From assembly GCA_022842785.1 (NCBI GenBank), contig JALHOW010000003.1, positions 558,001 to 622,000 on the forward strand: a stretch of 64,000 nucleotides of DNA. Direction: 5' to 3'. This stretch comes from Hyphomicrobiaceae bacterium. Its GTDB lineage: Bacteria; Pseudomonadota; Alphaproteobacteria; Rhizobiales; Hyphomicrobiaceae. The position numbers and the translations under genes are program-made. Every line of letters starts with the position of its first letter. Positions within the stretch are counted from its first letter, which is position 1. Below the pieces are notes generated by a model that worked only from the letters and a program-made list of their open reading frames with translations, searched no databases and was not told where the DNA came from. Shown here one piece after another: positions 23,600 to 30,224 of the stretch.

Positions 23600-25084
23600 G
23601 TGAAGCTCGATCCGCTGCCGGATCAAACCAGTGAGGTCGCCCGCGTGCCCGTCAATGTCTCGTTCCTGCAGGAGCTGCTCAGCACGGTCGCCGAGCAGGG
23701 CCGCCAGTATCTGCCGCGCGCGCTCCTCGGCAATGGTCCCGACGAGGATATCACCGCCCTCTCGGCAGCTCTCATGTCAGTGCGCGGCGAAGCCTCGGGC
23801 GTTGCCATTGCACGGCGCATTCTCGACGATTATCGCAAGCTGGACCCGGACCATCGCCGCACGTTCTTCCGCTATCTCGTCGAGCACATCCGGCCCGATG
23901 AGCGCCAGGTCGAACAGGCCGCCTCGGCCTACGTCGCCACACCCGGCGAAGCGACGCTGAAGTCCCTCCAGCACGCCGTCGAGAGCCCACGCCAGGAGTT
24001 TTTCCGCCGGCTGAACCTCGCACCCGGCGCCACGGCCGAGATCGTCGCCATGCGCCGCGATCTCCTGCGCCTGCCGAAATCCGAACTCGGCGCGCTCGAC
24101 ACCGACCTCATGCACCTCCTGCACTCGTGGTTCAACCGCGGCTTCCTTGTGCTGAAGCGCATCGACTGGCAGACGCCCGCCGCCATCCTCGAGAAGCTCA
24201 TCCAGTACGAGGCCGTTCACGAGATCAAGGGCTTCGAGGATCTGCGCCGCCGCCTCGATCCGGCTGACCGGCGCTGCTACGGCTTCTTCCATCCCTCGCT
24301 CGTCGATGAACCGCTCATCTTCGTTGAGGTCGCGCTGATGGGAGACATTCCCGCCAGCATCCATTCCGTGCTCGGCGAAGCGCGCAAGAACGGTAACGAC
24401 ACCCCACCGCCGACGACGGCCGTCTTCTACTCGATCTCGAACTGCCAGGAAGGGCTCAAGGGCATTTCCTTCGGCAACTTCCTCATCAAGCAGGTCGTCG
24501 AGGATTTGGCGCGCGAGCAGCCACAGCTCAAGACCTTCGTCACGCTCTCGCCGGTGCCGACCTTCGCCCGCTGGCTCGACCGTGTTATGGCCGACGACCA
24601 GGAGGGCGTCGTGACGGAGGCGGATCGCGAAGTGTTGCAGACGCTGCGCAATCCGGGCTGGATCGAGGACGAGGAGGAAGGCGAGGCTCTGCGCGCTTCC
24701 CTGCTGGCACTCGCCGCCCATTACTTCCTCGTTGCCAAGGCGGCCGACGGGCGCCCCGTCGATCCTGTCGCGCGCTTTCATCTCGGCAATGGTGCCCGCC
24801 TCGAGCGCATCAACTGGCTCGGGGACGTCTCGGAGAAGGGTCTGCGCGAGGCGCACGGGCTCATGGTGAATTACCGCTACGACCTCAAGGAAATCGAGCG
24901 CAATCACGAGGCTTATGCCAACGAAGGCGAGGTCGCGGCCTCGCGCGCTGTGCGCCAGCTCGCCCGACCGGTCGGCAAGACCAAACCGAAGCTCCCGACG
25001 CCGAAGGCTCTTCTGCAGTTACCGCTCCGGTCGTCAGAGCCGACAAGCGAAAAACCCAGCGGTGATGGGAAGAAGGGCGACTGA
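23600..25084 (+). CDS. Malonyl-CoA decarboxylase
   Basis: The 494-residue enzyme turns malonyl-CoA into acetyl-CoA and CO2. It has an N-terminal helical domain and a C-terminal GNAT-like catalytic domain with the signature FHPSLVDEPLIFVEVAL, TAVFYSISNCQEGLKGISFG and TLSPVPTFARWL; the Ser-His pair of characterised enzymes lies in SISNCQ and in the FHPSLV segment. The start is GTG 23600. No malonyl-CoA synthetase (MatB) is adjacent. The histidine-phosphatase gene follows 23 bases later and is probably co-transcribed. Confidence 0.92.
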   Translation: MKLDPLPDQTSEVARVPVNVSFLQELLSTVAEQGRQYLPRALLGNGPDEDITALSAALMSVRGEASGVAIARRILDDYRKLDPDHRRTFFRYLVEHIRPDERQVEQAASAYVATPGEATLKSLQHAVESPRQEFFRRLNLAPGATAEIVAMRRDLLRLPKSELGALDTDLMHLLHSWFNRGFLVLKRIDWQTPAAILEKLIQYEAVHEIKGFEDLRRRLDPADRRCYGFFHPSLVDEPLIFVEVALMGDIPASIHSVLGEARKNGNDTPPPTTAVFYSISNCQEGLKGISFGNFLIKQVVEDLAREQPQLKTFVTLSPVPTFARWLDRVMADDQEGVVTEADREVLQTLRNPGWIEDEEEGEALRASLLALAAHYFLVAKAADGRPVDPVARFHLGNGARLERINWLGDVSEKGLREAHGLMVNYRYDLKEIERNHEAYANEGEVAASRAVRQLARPVGKTKPKLPTPKALLQLPLRSSEPTSEKPSGDGKKGD

Positions 25085-25107
25085 TCGCGCTCGCCGGGAG
25101 CTGGGCC

Positions 25108-25680
25108 TTGAGCACGATCTTCTTCATCACCCATCCGGAAGTGGTGATCGATCCCGCCACGCCGGTGCCGCGCTGGCACCTGAGCGACGTGGGCATCGCG
25201 AAGATGCGCGCCTTCGCTGCTGCGCCGTCGATGCGTGACATCAGGACCATTTGGGCGAGCACAGAGACCAAGGCCATCGAAGGTGCCGGCATTCTCGCCG
25301 CAGCGCACGGCCTGCCCGTCGCCGTACATCCCGGCCTCGACGAGAACGACCGCAGCGCGACCGGCTTCCTGCCGCCTGATGAATTCCAGCGCGTGGCCGA
25401 CCAGTTCTTCGCTCATCCAGATGAGAGTGTGCGAGGCTGGGAGCGTGCAGTCGACGCCCAGCAACGCGTCGTCGCAGCTTTCGAGGCGATCATCGCTGCG
25501 CCCGCCGCGGGCGATATCGCCATCGTGGCGCACGGCGGCGTCGGCACACTGCTCTACTGCCATCTTGCCGGGCTGGCGATCAGCCGCCAGCACGACCAGC
25601 CTGCACAGGGCCATTATTGGAGCTATGCGCTCACGTCGCGATCGCTGCTCCACGCTTGGCGCTCTATCGTCGCGGACTGA
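25108..25680 (+). CDS. Histidine phosphatase superfamily protein with THP in place of RHG
   Basis: The 190-residue protein has the phosphoglycerate-mutase fold. The phospho-His is kept in FFITHPEV (His9), but the usual Arg-His-Gly reads Thr-His-Pro, and the second Arg of the phosphate pocket is Lys55 (STETKAIEGA). The acidic ENDR segment (Glu79) and the second His (VAHGGVG, His142) are retained. Start is TTG 25108 after GGGAG. Loss of both Arg argues for a changed substrate or lower phosphatase activity. It probably shares a transcript with malonyl-CoA decarboxylase. Confidence 0.82.
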   Translation: MSTIFFITHPEVVIDPATPVPRWHLSDVGIAKMRAFAAAPSMRDIRTIWASTETKAIEGAGILAAAHGLPVAVHPGLDENDRSATGFLPPDEFQRVADQFFAHPDESVRGWERAVDAQQRVVAAFEAIIAAPAAGDIAIVAHGGVGTLLYCHLAGLAISRQHDQPAQGHYWSYALTSRSLLHAWRSIVAD

Positions 25681-25698
25681 AGTGCGGACTTGGTGAGC

Positions 25699-26346
25699 CT
25701 ACCACCGCAGCACAAGGCGCCCGAGAAGCGCTCCTGCCGCAGTCGGAATTGCCATGCCGATCCCATACCAGATGAGAACGAAGGGCAGCGCAGTCTCCCC
25801 GCAAGAAAAGGCATAAACCAAGGCAGCCGTGGCACCGGCCGTTAGGCCGGCGACCGCACCAGCAAGGGTGAGCCGGGTCGGTGCCATCCGGCGCAGGACG
25901 GCGAGCGTGATCGCCATCACCGGCATGGCCAGCAATGCAATGAGCCAGGGACACACAGCCGAGGTCGATCCCATGATCATGCGGCCATATTCATTCGGCG
26001 ATACACGCCACAGCTCGGCTACCGCAAGGCTAGCCATTGCCATAAGCGCGAGCACCATGCCGACCCACGTACGCCGCGCGACTTGCGCCTCCGGACGCGC
26101 GAGACGCAGCGTGGCTGCGAGGCCAAGCACCGCAAGCAGCGCCGGATAAGCAAGCTTCGCCCAGAAGGCCAACGACGCGATGGCGCCCGCCATGTCCGAC
26201 CGTATGCCCCACAGCGCCAGCACGACAGTCGCGGCGAACGCACCACCGACAACAACGCCAAGGCCCACGCGCCGCGCGACGAGGCCCTGCGGCGTCGCAC
26301 TGAGGTCGCCGGAGAGCTGGTCGATGAGCTCGGGCGTCGTGGTCAC
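25699..26346 (-). CDS. nrsF: NrsF-type anti-sigma factor (DUF1109), six-helix membrane protein
   Basis: The 215-residue protein has six membrane helices and matches the DUF1109/NrsF family, which sequesters the ECF factor SigF at the inner membrane. The N-terminal cytosolic stretch TPELIDQLSGDLSATPQGLVARR likely binds the sigma factor. Two cysteines, Cys132 (SAVCPWL) and Cys182 (FSCGETAL), are the only ones present; in Caulobacter NrsF, as I recall, an equivalent pair is needed for sensing metals or oxidants. Its start overlaps the sigF stop by four bases. Confidence 0.88.
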   Translation of the reverse strand: MTTTPELIDQLSGDLSATPQGLVARRVGLGVVVGGAFAATVVLALWGIRSDMAGAIASLAFWAKLAYPALLAVLGLAATLRLARPEAQVARRTWVGMVLALMAMASLAVAELWRVSPNEYGRMIMGSTSAVCPWLIALLAMPVMAITLAVLRRMAPTRLTLAGAVAGLTAGATAALVYAFSCGETALPFVLIWYGIGMAIPTAAGALLGRLVLRW

Positions 26347-26927
26347 GGCGTGTCGGTCCCTTTGAATCGCTGCGCCAGCAACTTCATGCCGCGGTGAATG
26401 GCGATCTTCACCGCGGATTCCGAGACCCCATGCTTCGAGGAGACCTCGGCGATGGAGCGTCCGTCGATCTTTACCGCGCGAATGTACTGGCTCGTTCGCT
26501 CGGGCAATTCCCCGAGCACCTGCTCCACGTCGAGGCGCGCCGCGCTCGGCTCAGGCACATCACTCTCGAATGCTAATTCGTCGGCATCCTCGATCGGGAT
26601 ACTCGTTCTGATCTTTTTTCGCCGGAAATGGTCAATGAGCTTGTAGCGCGCAATGGCGTGCAGCCACGCGGTGAAGGGACGGCTGATCTCGTACGTGAAG
26701 CGCCGCTGATGCACGGCCAGCAAGGTCTCCTGAACGAGATCCTCGACATCCGCGCTCTCGCGACCGAGGCGCCGGGCGAAGTAAACACGCAAGCGATCCG
26801 CGACATCCGCGAGCAGCCGGCGATAGGATGGCTCGTCGCCAGCCAGCGCACCGATCATCAGGGATCTCAGGCGTTCCTCGACCTGCTGCAGGGCTGGCGC
26901 GCTCCAAAATGGGCTCGGCGTTCTCAC
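26343..26927 (-). CDS. sigF: ECF RNA polymerase sigma factor, SigF-like
   Basis: The product (about 194 residues) shows region 2 (YFARRLGRESADVEDLVQET, FTAWLHAIARYKLIDHFRR) and region 4 (ELPERTSQYIRAVKIDGRSI, VSESAVKIAIHRGMKLL). Genes for NrsF next to it and a diverging Met-rich protein and MsrPQ match the Caulobacter SigF regulon. The start is uncertain: GTG 26927 gives an N-terminus ahead of the conserved LRSLMIGALAGDEPSYRRLL, but other GTG codons lie just upstream. I see no SigF-type promoter in front of this gene itself. Confidence 0.88.
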   Translation of the reverse strand: MRTPSPFWSAPALQQVEERLRSLMIGALAGDEPSYRRLLADVADRLRVYFARRLGRESADVEDLVQETLLAVHQRRFTYEISRPFTAWLHAIARYKLIDHFRRKKIRTSIPIEDADELAFESDVPEPSAARLDVEQVLGELPERTSQYIRAVKIDGRSIAEVSSKHGVSESAVKIAIHRGMKLLAQRFKGTDTP

Positions 26928-26998
26928 GCGCACTCGCGCGACCACGCCGCTTATCGGCGAAGACCGCACTCTCCACCTATCACAACGCCGTGATGCCT

Positions 26999-27024
26999 GT
27001 AACCACGCAGCGGGCCGGCGCGAA
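26999..27024 (+). promoter_or_regulatory. SigF-type promoter (GTAACC-N16-CGAA)
   Basis: GTAACC at 26999-27004 is followed after exactly 16 bases by CGAA at 27021-27024, 64 bases before the Met/Lys-repeat gene and pointing toward it. From memory, this is the consensus described for SigF-dependent promoters in Caulobacter crescentus. The adjacent sigF-nrsF pair makes it a strong candidate. Confidence 0.7.
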
Positions 27025-27087
27025 TTCTTCTGCATCGCCACCGCACAGCGCGGCCGAGCGGATCACACCCGGGAGGACGAGCCCACC

Positions 27088-27327
27088 ATGAGCCAAAACA
27101 TCATCCAGGCCACACTGGTCGCAACCGCACTGACGATAGGGGCGCTGTCCTCCGTTCAGGCTCAGGATTCCATGAAGAAGGACATGATGAAGTCCGATTC
27201 GATGAAGTCGGATGGCATGAAGATGAAGAAGTCGGACACCATGAAATCGGGCGGCATGAAGGATGGTGTCATGAAGGAGGGTGGGATGAAGTCCGGAGAC
27301 ATGAAGCCGGGCGAGAAGATGAAATAG
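27088..27327 (+). CDS. Secreted Met/Lys pentapeptide-repeat protein (MXKDX family)
   Basis: The 79-residue product has a signal peptide (residues 1-26, VQAQD cleavage region), then about ten tandem Met-Lys-centred repeats such as [16 protein letters not shown] and GMKSG, to a KMK end. Methionine makes up roughly one fifth of the mature chain. It fits the MXKDX pentapeptide family. No enzyme domain exists; periplasmic metal binding or scavenging of oxidants through Met is likely. It lies downstream of the SigF-type promoter and 185 bases before msrP. Confidence 0.85.
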
Positions 27328-27511
27328 CGCACGCCCGCTCCAGGCGGCCGGGGACGGCGGATTGTTCGCGATATCGCCGCTCGAATGTTCCGCTCCCTCG
27401 GTCGCAGGACACCACGCCGTTTCAATTGAGCGTTATGAACACTTCCGGCCCTTCACGAAGCCGCCACACCGCCTTATTCATCTACAGCGACCTCGGAGGA
27501 GGAATCCGGCC

Positions 27512-28477
27512 ATGCTGATACGCATCCCTAATGCCAGTGACGCCCGTCCCTCGGAGATAACAGATCGGTCTACCTACTTCGGGCGACGCGAGTTCATGCT
27601 CGGGGCAGCTGCCTTCAGCGCCGCTGCCGCGCTTCCATTCGGCGCGATTGCCGCGCCTCTCTCGGCGACGAAGAGCCCGCTCTCCACGAACGAGACCCCG
27701 ACTCCGCTGAAGGACGTGACCAGCTACAATAACTTCTACGAGTTCGGCACCGACAAGGGCGATCCTGCCAAGAACGCCCACACGCTGACGACGAAGCCGT
27801 GGAAGGTGAAGGTCGATGGCCTCGTCGACAAACCGGCCGACTACGACCTCGACGACCTGATCAAGGATATCGCGCTCGAGGAGCGTATCTATCGCATGCG
27901 CTGCGTCGAGGGCTGGTCCATGGTCATTCCATGGGTCGGCGTACCGCTGGCGAGCGTCCTCGCGCGCGTTTCGCCGCAAGGCAGCGCCAAGTATTTGGCC
28001 TTCGAGACGCTCGTGCGTCCGGAGGAAATGCCGGGCCAGAAGGGCTTCTTCCAGGCCATGAAGTGGCCGTACGTGGAAGGCCTGCGACTCGACGAGGCCA
28101 TGCATCCGCTGACGATCCTCGCCGTCGGGCTTTATGGCGAGAAGCTGCCCAACCAGAATGGCGCGCCCATACGCCTCGTCGTCCCGTGGAAATACGGCTT
28201 CAAGAGCATCAAGTCGGTCGTTCGGATGACGCTCACGGACAAGCAGCCGATCACGTCCTGGAGCCGCGAGAACCCACGCGAGTACGGCTTCTACTCGAAC
28301 GTCAATCCGGCCGTTGACCATCCGCGCTGGAGCCAAGCCACCGAGCGGCGCATCGGCGATCAGGGCGGCAGCTTTGGCGGCCTGTTCGCCAAGCGCCATC
28401 CCACACTCCTCTTCAATGGCTACGCCGAGCAGGTCGCGAGCCTCTATTCCGGGTTGGACCTCAAGGCGAACTACTGA
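27512..28477 (+). CDS. msrP: Periplasmic protein-methionine-sulfoxide reductase, catalytic subunit MsrP
   Basis: The 321-residue molybdoenzyme has a Tat signal ([18 protein letters not shown], residues 24-41) and a sulfite-oxidase-like domain with [20 protein letters not shown], where Cys131 ligates molybdopterin. MsrP reduces R- and S-methionine sulfoxide in envelope proteins using quinol electrons passed by MsrQ. ATG 27512 follows GGAGGAGG. It is followed after three bases by msrQ. I see no SigF motif directly in front, so read-through from 26999 may drive it. Confidence 0.95.
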
Positions 28478-28480
28478 GAA

Positions 28481-29119
28481 ATGGCCACACGATCCAGGCA
28501 AAGGAGCACGCTCTCGCGCCTGATTCTCGGCGCCGACCCGCAGCGGCGCACGCTCTACATCGCCGGCATGACCCCGGCCGTTCTGTATTTCTACTGGGGA
28601 TTGACCAATCAGCTCGGCGCCGATCCGCAGAATGTTCTCGAACGCGCGCTCGGCCTTTGGGCGCTGCGCTTTCTGATCGCAAGCCTCGCCATCACACCCT
28701 TGAGGCAGCTCGGCGGCCCAAGTCTCTATCGCTTTCGCCGCGCCATAGGGCTGCTCGCCTTCTACTACGCGGCGCTGCATCTCACGGTCTACATGGTGCT
28801 CGACAAGGGGCTAGACCTCCCCTCGATCATCGCCGACATCATCAAGCGGCCCTACATCACGGTTGGGATGCTGGCCTTCGCGATACTGGTCCCGCTCGCA
28901 GTGACGTCGAATGGGCCGATGATCCGCCGCCTCGGCGCAAACTGGCGCAAGTTGCATCGCCTCGCGTACGTGGCGGCGGCAGCGGCCGCTCTCCACTTCA
29001 TTATGCTGGTGAAAGTCTGGCCGGGGGAGCCGCTCATCTACGCCGGCCTCGTCGCCGCGCTCCTGCTCTTCCGCCTCGCCAACTCGCTACGCCCGCGGGC
29101 TCGGCCGGCACGATCCTAG
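28481..29119 (+). CDS. msrQ: MsrQ heme-binding membrane subunit
   Basis: The 212-residue protein has six membrane helices of the ferric-reductase-like fold, with His in YAALHLTVYMVL and WRKLHRLAYVAAAAAALHFIM, which bind b-type heme in E. coli MsrQ. It passes electrons from the quinone pool to MsrP. It begins three bases after the msrP stop, consistent with one transcript. Confidence 0.94.
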   Translation: MATRSRQRSTLSRLILGADPQRRTLYIAGMTPAVLYFYWGLTNQLGADPQNVLERALGLWALRFLIASLAITPLRQLGGPSLYRFRRAIGLLAFYYAALHLTVYMVLDKGLDLPSIIADIIKRPYITVGMLAFAILVPLAVTSNGPMIRRLGANWRKLHRLAYVAAAAAALHFIMLVKVWPGEPLIYAGLVAALLLFRLANSLRPRARPARS

Positions 29120-29199
29120 GAATGTTCCGCCGACACTGCCCGCACATGCATGACGGCCGCCCTTGACGGCCCCGCTCGCGCACGGTACGCACGATCTAC

Positions 29200-29216
29200 A
29201 TTAGATCAATTCTAAT
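29200..29216. promoter_or_regulatory. Irr-type iron control element before mbfA
   Basis: ATTAGATCAATTCTAAT is an inverted repeat with six-base arms (ATTAGA/TCTAAT) and five central bases. It agrees at 11 of 12 positions with the Irr box TTAGAA-N3-TTCTAA, as I recall that consensus. It ends 15 bases before the mbfA GTG start, so bound Irr would block transcription when iron is scarce. Confidence 0.65.
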
Positions 29217-29231
29217 CTGGATCCCGCGCAC

Positions 29232-30224
29232 GTGCTGACCCGCCTCTCTCTCATCTCCTCGACCGGCAAGCGCCGCTTCGACGAGCTTACCGAGCAGGAG
29301 ATCCTCGCTCTCGCCATCTCCTCCGAGGAGGAGGACGGTCAGATCTACACGGCCTATGCGGAACGCCTCAGGACCCAATATCCCGCCACTGCCGCCATCT
29401 TCGAGGACATGGCCGCCGAGGAAAACCAACACCGCCGCCGCCTGATCGAAGCCTACCAGCGCCGGTTCGGCGATTTCATCGTGCCCATCCGCCGCGAGCA
29501 CGTGGCCGGCTACTACACGCGCCGCCCCGTCTGGCTCGTCACGAATCTCGACCTCGACACCATCCGCAACGAAGCCGTCGATATGGAGCGTCAGGCGCAC
29601 GACTTCTACGTCGCCGCCGCGGGCCGCTCGACGGACGCCGACACGCGCAAGCTGCTCGGCGATCTTGCTGCCGCCGAAGCCGGCCATCAGGCCAAGGCGG
29701 ACCGTCTCGAGGAAAAACATCTCGGCGAGGGCGCCCGCGAGGAGGAGGATCTCGCCGCTCGCCGCCAGTTCGTGCTGACGTGGGTGCAGCCCGGCCTCGC
29801 CGGCCTCATGGACGGCTCCGTCTCGACGCTCGCGCCGATCTTCGCCACGGCCTTCGCTACTCAGAACCCGTGGACCACCTTTCTCGTCGGTCTTTCCGCC
29901 TCGGTCGGTGCCGGAATCTCCATGGGCTTCACCGAAGCCGCGCACGACGACGGCAAGCTCTCAGGCCGCGGCGCGCCGTGGAAGCGCGGTCTCGCCTCGG
30001 GCGTCATGACCACCATCGGCGGGCTCGGTCACGCGCTGCCCTATCTCATTCCCGATTTTTTCATCGCGACGATCATCGCGCTCATCGTCGTCTTCATCGA
30101 GCTCTGGGTCATCGTGTGGATCCAGAACCGCTACATGGAGACCCCCTTCGGCCGGGCGACGTTTCAGGTCGTGCTCGGCGGCGGCCTCGTGCTCGCCGCC
30201 GGCATACTGATCGGGGCCTCGTAG
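29232..30224 (+). CDS. mbfA: Membrane-bound ferritin MbfA (iron exporter)
   Basis: The 330-residue protein joins an N-terminal ferritin-like diiron domain (EEEDGQIYTAYAERL, AAEENQHRRRL, AAEAGHQAKADRL; residues 20-165) to a C-terminal VIT1/CCC1-type membrane domain with about five helices (VQPGLAGLMDGSVSTLAPIF, GAGISMGFTEAA, GGGLVLAAGILIGAS). MbfA exports iron and protects rhizobia from iron and peroxide stress. Start is GTG 29232; a ribosome site is weak because the operator lies just upstream. The last 19 codons are echoed by a remnant at 32840-32896. Confidence 0.94.
   Translation: MLTRLSLISSTGKRRFDELTEQEILALAISSEEEDGQIYTAYAERLRTQYPATAAIFEDMAAEENQHRRRLIEAYQRRFGDFIVPIRREHVAGYYTRRPVWLVTNLDLDTIRNEAVDMERQAHDFYVAAAGRSTDADTRKLLGDLAAAEAGHQAKADRLEEKHLGEGAREEEDLAARRQFVLTWVQPGLAGLMDGSVSTLAPIFATAFATQNPWTTFLVGLSASVGAGISMGFTEAAHDDGKLSGRGAPWKRGLASGVMTTIGGLGHALPYLIPDFFIATIIALIVVFIELWVIVWIQNRYMETPFGRATFQVVLGGGLVLAAGILIGAS

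Follow-up and report, generated by a model that had tools for sequence, protein, structure and literature searches.

A SigF/NrsF locus of a Hyphomicrobiaceae bacterium with canonical MsrPQ beside a methionine-rich peptide gene, and a conserved dyad at the peptide promoter

What brings an extracytoplasmic function (ECF) sigma factor, its membrane anti-sigma factor, a small methionine-rich, probably secreted protein and a methionine sulfoxide reductase together in one place, and which of their genes are controlled together? The question is raised by a locus in 64,000 nucleotides of a Hyphomicrobiaceae bacterium (assembly GCA_022842785.1, contig JALHOW010000003.1, positions 558,001 to 622,000 of the forward strand), the whole of which is called the window here. 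When positions 25000-30000 of the window were read and translated, nrsF and sigF on the minus strand were found to diverge from an mrpX-like gene, which is followed by msrP and msrQ (table 1), as a first-pass annotation made from the sequence alone had placed them. We put at about three in four the probability that the locus, taken as a whole, is an oxidant-response locus of the MrpX kind under SigF/NrsF (group ECF16), with a methionine sink and repair by MsrPQ. Gene content, promoter motif and conservation come from the present analysis, and the SigF/NrsF switch and the sink from published homologues.

The cycle of sink and repair, put forward in the first-pass annotation as its own hypothesis, agrees with a published and experimentally studied kind of system and is not new. 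In Azospira suillum PS, sigF/nrsF-mrpX-yedY1 was described with the same idea (Melnyk et al. 2015, mBio, as cited in PMC4623255 and PMC5748585), and shares with the window a sigma/anti-sigma pair, a Met-rich peptide (predicted to be periplasmic in the window) and a periplasmic methionine sulfoxide reductase; deletion of nrsF raises tolerance (PMC5748585). The difference lies in the reductase, which is canonical MsrP with MsrQ in the window, whereas Azospira YedY1, judging by the betaproteobacterial locus L090, would be of the type paired with cytochrome b561. The bcrS-abcS/bcrXQP locus of Brucella melitensis is of the same kind, with an MXKDX protein, a reductase pair, a divergent ECF16 sigma/anti-sigma pair and a GTAAC/CGAA promoter; its three genes are co-transcribed, the start is mapped, hypochlorous acid induces it, and its peptide was proposed as a sink regenerated by the reductase, with Melnyk 2015 cited for Azospira (PMC8315932). 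Brucella has the order X-Q-P, the same as X-cytochrome b561-YedY1 in Phyllobacterium loci L045 and L048; the window differs in its order X-P-Q, its true MsrPQ and the lack of a detected sigF-side promoter. Another ECF16 pair, EcfF/OsrA of Bradyrhizobium japonicum, has a six-helix anti-sigma factor with two functional Cys and controls methionine sulfoxide reductases, but ecfF is autoregulated and the available text mentions no MrpX (PMC3420878). In uropathogenic Escherichia coli, c3566-c3568 likewise encode a Met-rich peptide and MsrPQ-like enzymes, but under the two-component system C3564/C3565; the enzymes share 27.6% identity with MsrP and 23.1% with MsrQ, and c3566 is annotated as cytochrome B (PMC8550376). 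The window locus is thus a variant of a published module, with canonical MsrPQ, the order X-P-Q and no sigF-side promoter found, and by analogy the functional reading of a periplasmic Met sink with Msr repair under SigF/NrsF is probably right.

By the same analogy, oxidants such as hypochlorite would be sensed through NrsF, probably via a conserved Cys, and NrsF would then release SigF to transcribe mrpX. Once exported, the small Met/Lys-rich protein would serve as a sacrificial methionine sink, and MsrPQ would reduce the methionine sulfoxides with electrons from the quinone pool. To these steps the window would add three: the genus appears to use the general-purpose MsrPQ instead of the YedY1-cytochrome b561 pair usual beside mrpX; msrPQ may keep its own promoter; and a second regulator may bind a dyad before the mrpX -35, tuning the sink gene apart from sigF.

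Family scores and conserved Cys identify the adjacent sigma and anti-sigma genes. SigF scored 191.4 on NF009191 (cut-off 171) and 70.3 on the sigma70-ECF superfamily (cut-off 42.9), and its group, ECF16, was assigned from the NrsF partner and the promoter, not by an ECF classifier. The cut-off of the Pfam NrsF model is 26.8, far below the score obtained, whereas the NCBIfam NrsF equivalog gave just 123.8 against a cut-off of 300. Two NrsF Cys are invariant in 14 aligned homologues. In the 215-residue protein they are C132 and C182 (C122 and C172 in the numbering of the aligned segment), and by position they should be C131 and C181 of Caulobacter NrsF, whose substitution raises SigF-dependent expression (PMC3511200). 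For sigF, a GTG start at 26933 or 26927 seems more likely than the mechanical open reading frame (ORF) start at 27041, because the longer frame would cross both the dyad and the mrpX promoter.

The reductase is of the canonical type. MsrP exceeds its NCBIfam cut-off (207) more than twofold and has twin Arg at residues 25-26 and Cys131 within RCVEGW. MsrQ matches PF01794 and not PF01292, which sets the pair apart from the YedY1-cytochrome b561 type; we take its three His to be the haem ligands. With E. coli YedY (1xdq) the window MsrP aligned over 263 residues (E=3.1e-109); E. coli MsrPQ is not known to have a linked Met-rich peptide. It also differs in being under the YedVW two-component system (PMC8550376). 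The peptide has 12 Met and 14 Lys among its last 54 residues, with neither Cys nor His there, and its signal peptide and secretion were judged by eye.

Table 1. Features of the SigF/NrsF locus, in window coordinates
Feature	Position	Strand	Basis
nrsF, membrane anti-sigma factor	25699..26346	-	Pfam NrsF 205.7 bits; two invariant Cys
sigF, ECF sigma factor	26343..~26933	-	sigma-70 regions 2 and 4; conserved core from ~26864; GTG start inferred
dyad ATCACAACGCCGTGAT, putative operator for second regulator	26979..26994	.	4 bp 5' of mrpX -35
SigF-type promoter GTAACC-N16-CGAA of mrpX	26999..27024	+	exact match; exact in G002 and G004
mrpX-like gene, 79 aa	27088..27327	+	penta_MxKDx 39.9 bits (cut-off 41); Met/Lys composition
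TCAATTGAGCGTTATG, element 5' of msrP, possible separate msrPQ promoter	27422..27437	+	TCA-N5-8-GTTATG in 5/29 msrP upstreams
msrP, periplasmic molybdopterin methionine sulfoxide reductase	27512..28477	+	NCBIfam 482.6 bits; E. coli YedY 1xdq alignment; residues
msrQ, haem-binding membrane subunit	28481..29119	+	NCBIfam 168.8 bits (cut-off 130); PF01794; His100, His159, His172

The motif before mrpX is the GTAACC-N16-CGAA promoter described in Caulobacter (PMC3511200). Shuffling predicts 0.08 occurrences of GTAACC-N15-18-CGAA in the 64 kb window, and the exact copy is kept in two congeners with the same gene arrangement (G002 and G004). It had been placed 64 bases before the Met-rich gene, correctly, since 63 bases separate it from the ATG at 27088. 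With up to two mismatches allowed, the motif is at background (40 found, 33 expected), and in the whole genome GTAAC-N17-CGAA has 15 sites against 32 for the reversed-pattern control, so the motif gives no basis for a wider regulon. A genome-wide SigF regulon was accordingly rejected; by reading, only the mrpX site precedes a fitting secreted ORF, and it is convincing solely through that position and its exact conservation. On the sigF side no SigF promoter was found, the best candidate having four mismatches in the window and three in each of G002 and G004. Many other SigF loci, though not all, have SigF-type promoters on both sides, and we treat the sigF-side promoter (autoregulation) as a trait that varies among loci. 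The SigF-type promoter ascribed to the whole module therefore stands for mrpX, and was seen for neither sigF nor msrPQ.

To place this arrangement we compared 100 SigF loci, comprising the window, 80 named loci (the best 80 of 390 relatives matched with a SigF alignment in named genomes, and so not an even sample) and further relatives, each labelled by the content of the stretch read. Bufferin-type loci were the most frequent (43), followed by other loci (30), MrpX with YedY1-cytochrome b561 (12), YedY1-cytochrome b561 without MrpX (6), MrpX without a reductase (5), MrpX with canonical MsrPQ (3) and MsrPQ without MrpX (1). Two loci, L054 (counted as MrpX in a first tally) and L057, were dropped from the MrpX class as their Met-rich ORF is presumably of the DUF305 type. 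Thus 12 of the 15 loci with both an MrpX-like gene and a reductase have the YedY1 type with cytochrome b561, and the three with true MsrP and MsrQ are all in this genus (the window, G002 and G004). The four YedY1-type proteins scanned scored far below the MsrP cut-off (97.9 bits in L048, 75.9 in L090, 82.4 in L122 and 85.4 in L053); the partner pairs of L048 and L090 are a PF00174 lipoprotein and a PF01292 cytochrome, and the other pairs were assigned through similarity. A tree of SigF plus NrsF from 99 loci joined the genus to G390 and Chelatococcus in a group of five sequences (support 1.0); both of these relatives are of the MrpX and YedY1 type, and G390 as the nearest sister has a support of only 0.53. 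Because these nearest SigF relatives outside the genus carry the YedY1 type, the combination of MrpX with canonical MsrPQ seems to have arisen secondarily, by recruiting an enzyme that was already resident. In the MsrP tree, the window protein stands with G004 and G002, then with G001 (node support 0.34) and G018 (0.94), and msrP looks resident rather than foreign because it groups with relatives from its own family and genus.

Three side observations concern the content of such loci. The SigF/NrsF locus of the congener G001 (L015; L126 is likewise listed for it) has a DUF2282 bufferin-type peptide gene in the place of mrpX, and its msrPQ is on another contig (L191). L119, from a proteobacterial metagenome-assembled genome, has SigF/NrsF beside canonical MsrPQ, and no Met-rich peptide was found within the stretch. 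In L044, L045, L053 and L193 a DUF1223 gene (by Pfam in L044, by similarity in the other three) either separates sigF from the MrpX-like gene or adjoins the latter, and could be a further SigF target.

Several observations weigh against an MrpX-type sink coupled to MsrPQ. The window peptide scored 39.9 bits on penta_MxKDx (TIGR02953), slightly below the cut-off of 41, which its homologue in G004 exceeds (48.2) and that in G002 does not reach (36.3). The combination is also uncommon: of 142 genomes sampled evenly across the class, five gave a TIGR02953 match (none above cut-off), 26 an NrsF match and 80 an MsrP match above cut-off, and among the five the window genome alone has NrsF and MsrP too. 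The genome of G001, complete to 87%, carries msrPQ and gave no MXKDX match, so MsrPQ can do without the sink; G018 gave no such match either. Finally, the five MrpX-like genes beside SigF with no reductase in the stretch read indicate that the linkage is not obligatory.

Is msrPQ then part of the SigF response, or a mere neighbour, transcribed from a promoter of its own for housekeeping repair of the envelope, outside the SigF regulon, with mrpX as the sole SigF target here? Several findings point to a neighbour. TCA-N5-8-GTTATG, with its start between -81 and -92 of msrP, occurs in five of 29 msrP upstreams (G000, G001, G002, G004 and G018; mean 0.04 and largest 2 in single-base shuffles), although the pattern was picked once the sequences had been inspected, and all carriers but one belong to a single genus. 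In the form TCA-N7-GTTATG it precedes msrP in these five, of which G001 and G018 lack the MXKDX match. The mrpX-msrP gap of G002, about 760 bp, holds an opposite-strand ORF (by eye). MsrP groups by genus and family, as noted, and the window genome has a single MsrP above cut-off. Against this, the two genes lie on the same strand in the window, 184 bp apart, with no terminator-like or sigma-70-like site within the gap; the linkage is kept in all three genus genomes with an MXKDX match; and the three Brucella genes are co-transcribed (PMC8315932). An RNA attenuator in the gap was considered and rejected, the fold there being unremarkable (z -0.30) and the gap free of terminator-like sites. That the SigF promoter also drives msrPQ, as the annotation implied, is a candidate reading, favoured by the shared strand and by a gap free of terminator-like sites and weakened by the msrP element and the opposing ORF. 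Because the element is also present where msrP is unlinked to mrpX, and because of that ORF, msrPQ may have retained a promoter of its own. Both modes, separate and shared transcription, could operate side by side, and a purely neighbouring msrPQ is possible, with the odds leaning against it. As an aside, the opposing ORF of G002 (L124, 3736-4496) looks by eye like a GFA-family protein.

Calling the module complete leaves out a dyad that is conserved just before the mrpX -35. Its form, ATCAC-N6-GTGAT, is expected 0.03 times per window, and its arms are identical in the window, G002 and G004. In the window's own genome it occurs at three places (reversed control, one), the other two having no convincing link. 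A strict pattern, TCAC-N5-7-GTGA near the -35, was present at 18 of the 24 output promoters in loci of MrpX/YedY1 type and at none of the 22 sigF-side promoters there; elsewhere it was seen at 1/35 bufferin outputs, 0/6 other outputs and 0/51 further sigF-side promoters. The pattern was derived from 15 loci inside the counted set. Among 16 output promoters of loci first examined after it was fixed, repeats left out, two had it and seven others had looser forms, one of these at a different distance. MrpX loci without the dyad include L127, L194 and L090. As a mark of MrpX output alone (18/24 against 1/35 bufferin) the dyad was rejected, as weaker forms stand before other outputs of the same order; the link to output was withdrawn because most bufferin loci come from other orders, so that output was confounded with taxonomy.

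We therefore counted by order. The label of own order covers the order members found plus named genera taken to belong there; the window's order (that of Rhizobium and Chelatococcus) was deduced from matches. Sixteen loci repeating an already held place were dropped, and with several near-identical relatives left the lineages are fewer than the rows. A relaxed dyad, CAC-N4-6-CGTGA at 3-6 bp before the -35, whose definition followed inspection of the data, was present in the own order at 26 of 40 output-side and none of 46 sigF-side promoters, and in other orders at 1/41 and 0/47; for the strict dyad the corresponding counts were 20/40, 1/46, 1/41 and 0/47. No such site was found in the literature searched, which included the available text of PMC8315932 and PMC3420878; the inverted repeat in the latter is a different sequence at a different promoter (ecfQ).

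Rather than an operator, the dyad could be an integral element of the SigF promoter, or a feature inherited from a shared ancestor. Its nearly fixed distance to the -35, the many close relatives among the loci and a relaxed pattern shaped after the data would fit this, as would the poor yield of the strict form in the later loci and its absence from 6 of the 24 MrpX/YedY1-type outputs. We nevertheless regard it as unlikely, given that the sigF-side promoters of the same sigma factors and the outputs outside the order are almost devoid of the dyad, that the frequency of the relaxed form in single-base shuffles is 0.0002, and that the arms persist while the sequence between them varies. The dyad is probably the site of a second regulator; it is the newest element of the locus, and we infer its function. 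Tentatively, and at a little under even odds, the mrpX promoter would be a two-input switch, driven by SigF freed by oxidised NrsF and by a dimeric regulator on an ATCACR-N4-YGTGAT-like dyad centred about 12 bp 5' of the -35, the second input being order-wide on the output side and not on the sigF side; in this genus, resident MsrPQ with its own promoter would replace YedY1-cytochrome b561, so that sink and repair are controlled apart.

That the Met-rich protein is mainly a periplasmic buffer for metals (Cu, Cd, Cr) under SigF/NrsF, with MsrPQ repairing general envelope damage, is improbable: Caulobacter SigF does respond to chromium and cadmium (PMC3511200), bufferins sequester copper (PMC12452194), and a bufferin-type (DUF2282-like) gene shares a stretch with the same sigma/anti-sigma pair in 43 of the 100 loci and in the congener G001, but mature MrpX, Lys-rich and free of Cys and His, would be a poor set of metal ligands, 15 of the 20 loci with an MrpX-like gene also hold an MsrP-like reductase, and MrpX homologues are reported as hypochlorite scavengers (PMC8315932, PMC5748585, PMC8550376). 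The bufferin (Buf1/DUF2282) loci resemble the window in the kind of sigma/anti-sigma pair and in promoter type, and differ in that their peptide is Cys-based and modified, for copper, and is not a Met sink.

Outside the locus, a further dyad, TTAGATCAATTCTAA (29201-29215), lies just 5' of the iron-exporter gene mbfA (29232-30224) and is kept in G002 and G004 as TTAGA-N5-TCTAA; we take it to resemble an Irr or iron-control box.

Returning to the methionine sink with MsrPQ repair, the distribution of reductases suggests that this response is able to run with two unrelated electron-transfer partners. The survey also suggests that sigma/anti-sigma pairs of a single kind have a methionine sink as their output in some loci and a copper-binding peptide in others. 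The dyad, for its part, is a starting point from which a second regulator of oxidant defence in the envelope could be sought directly by experiment in the order.

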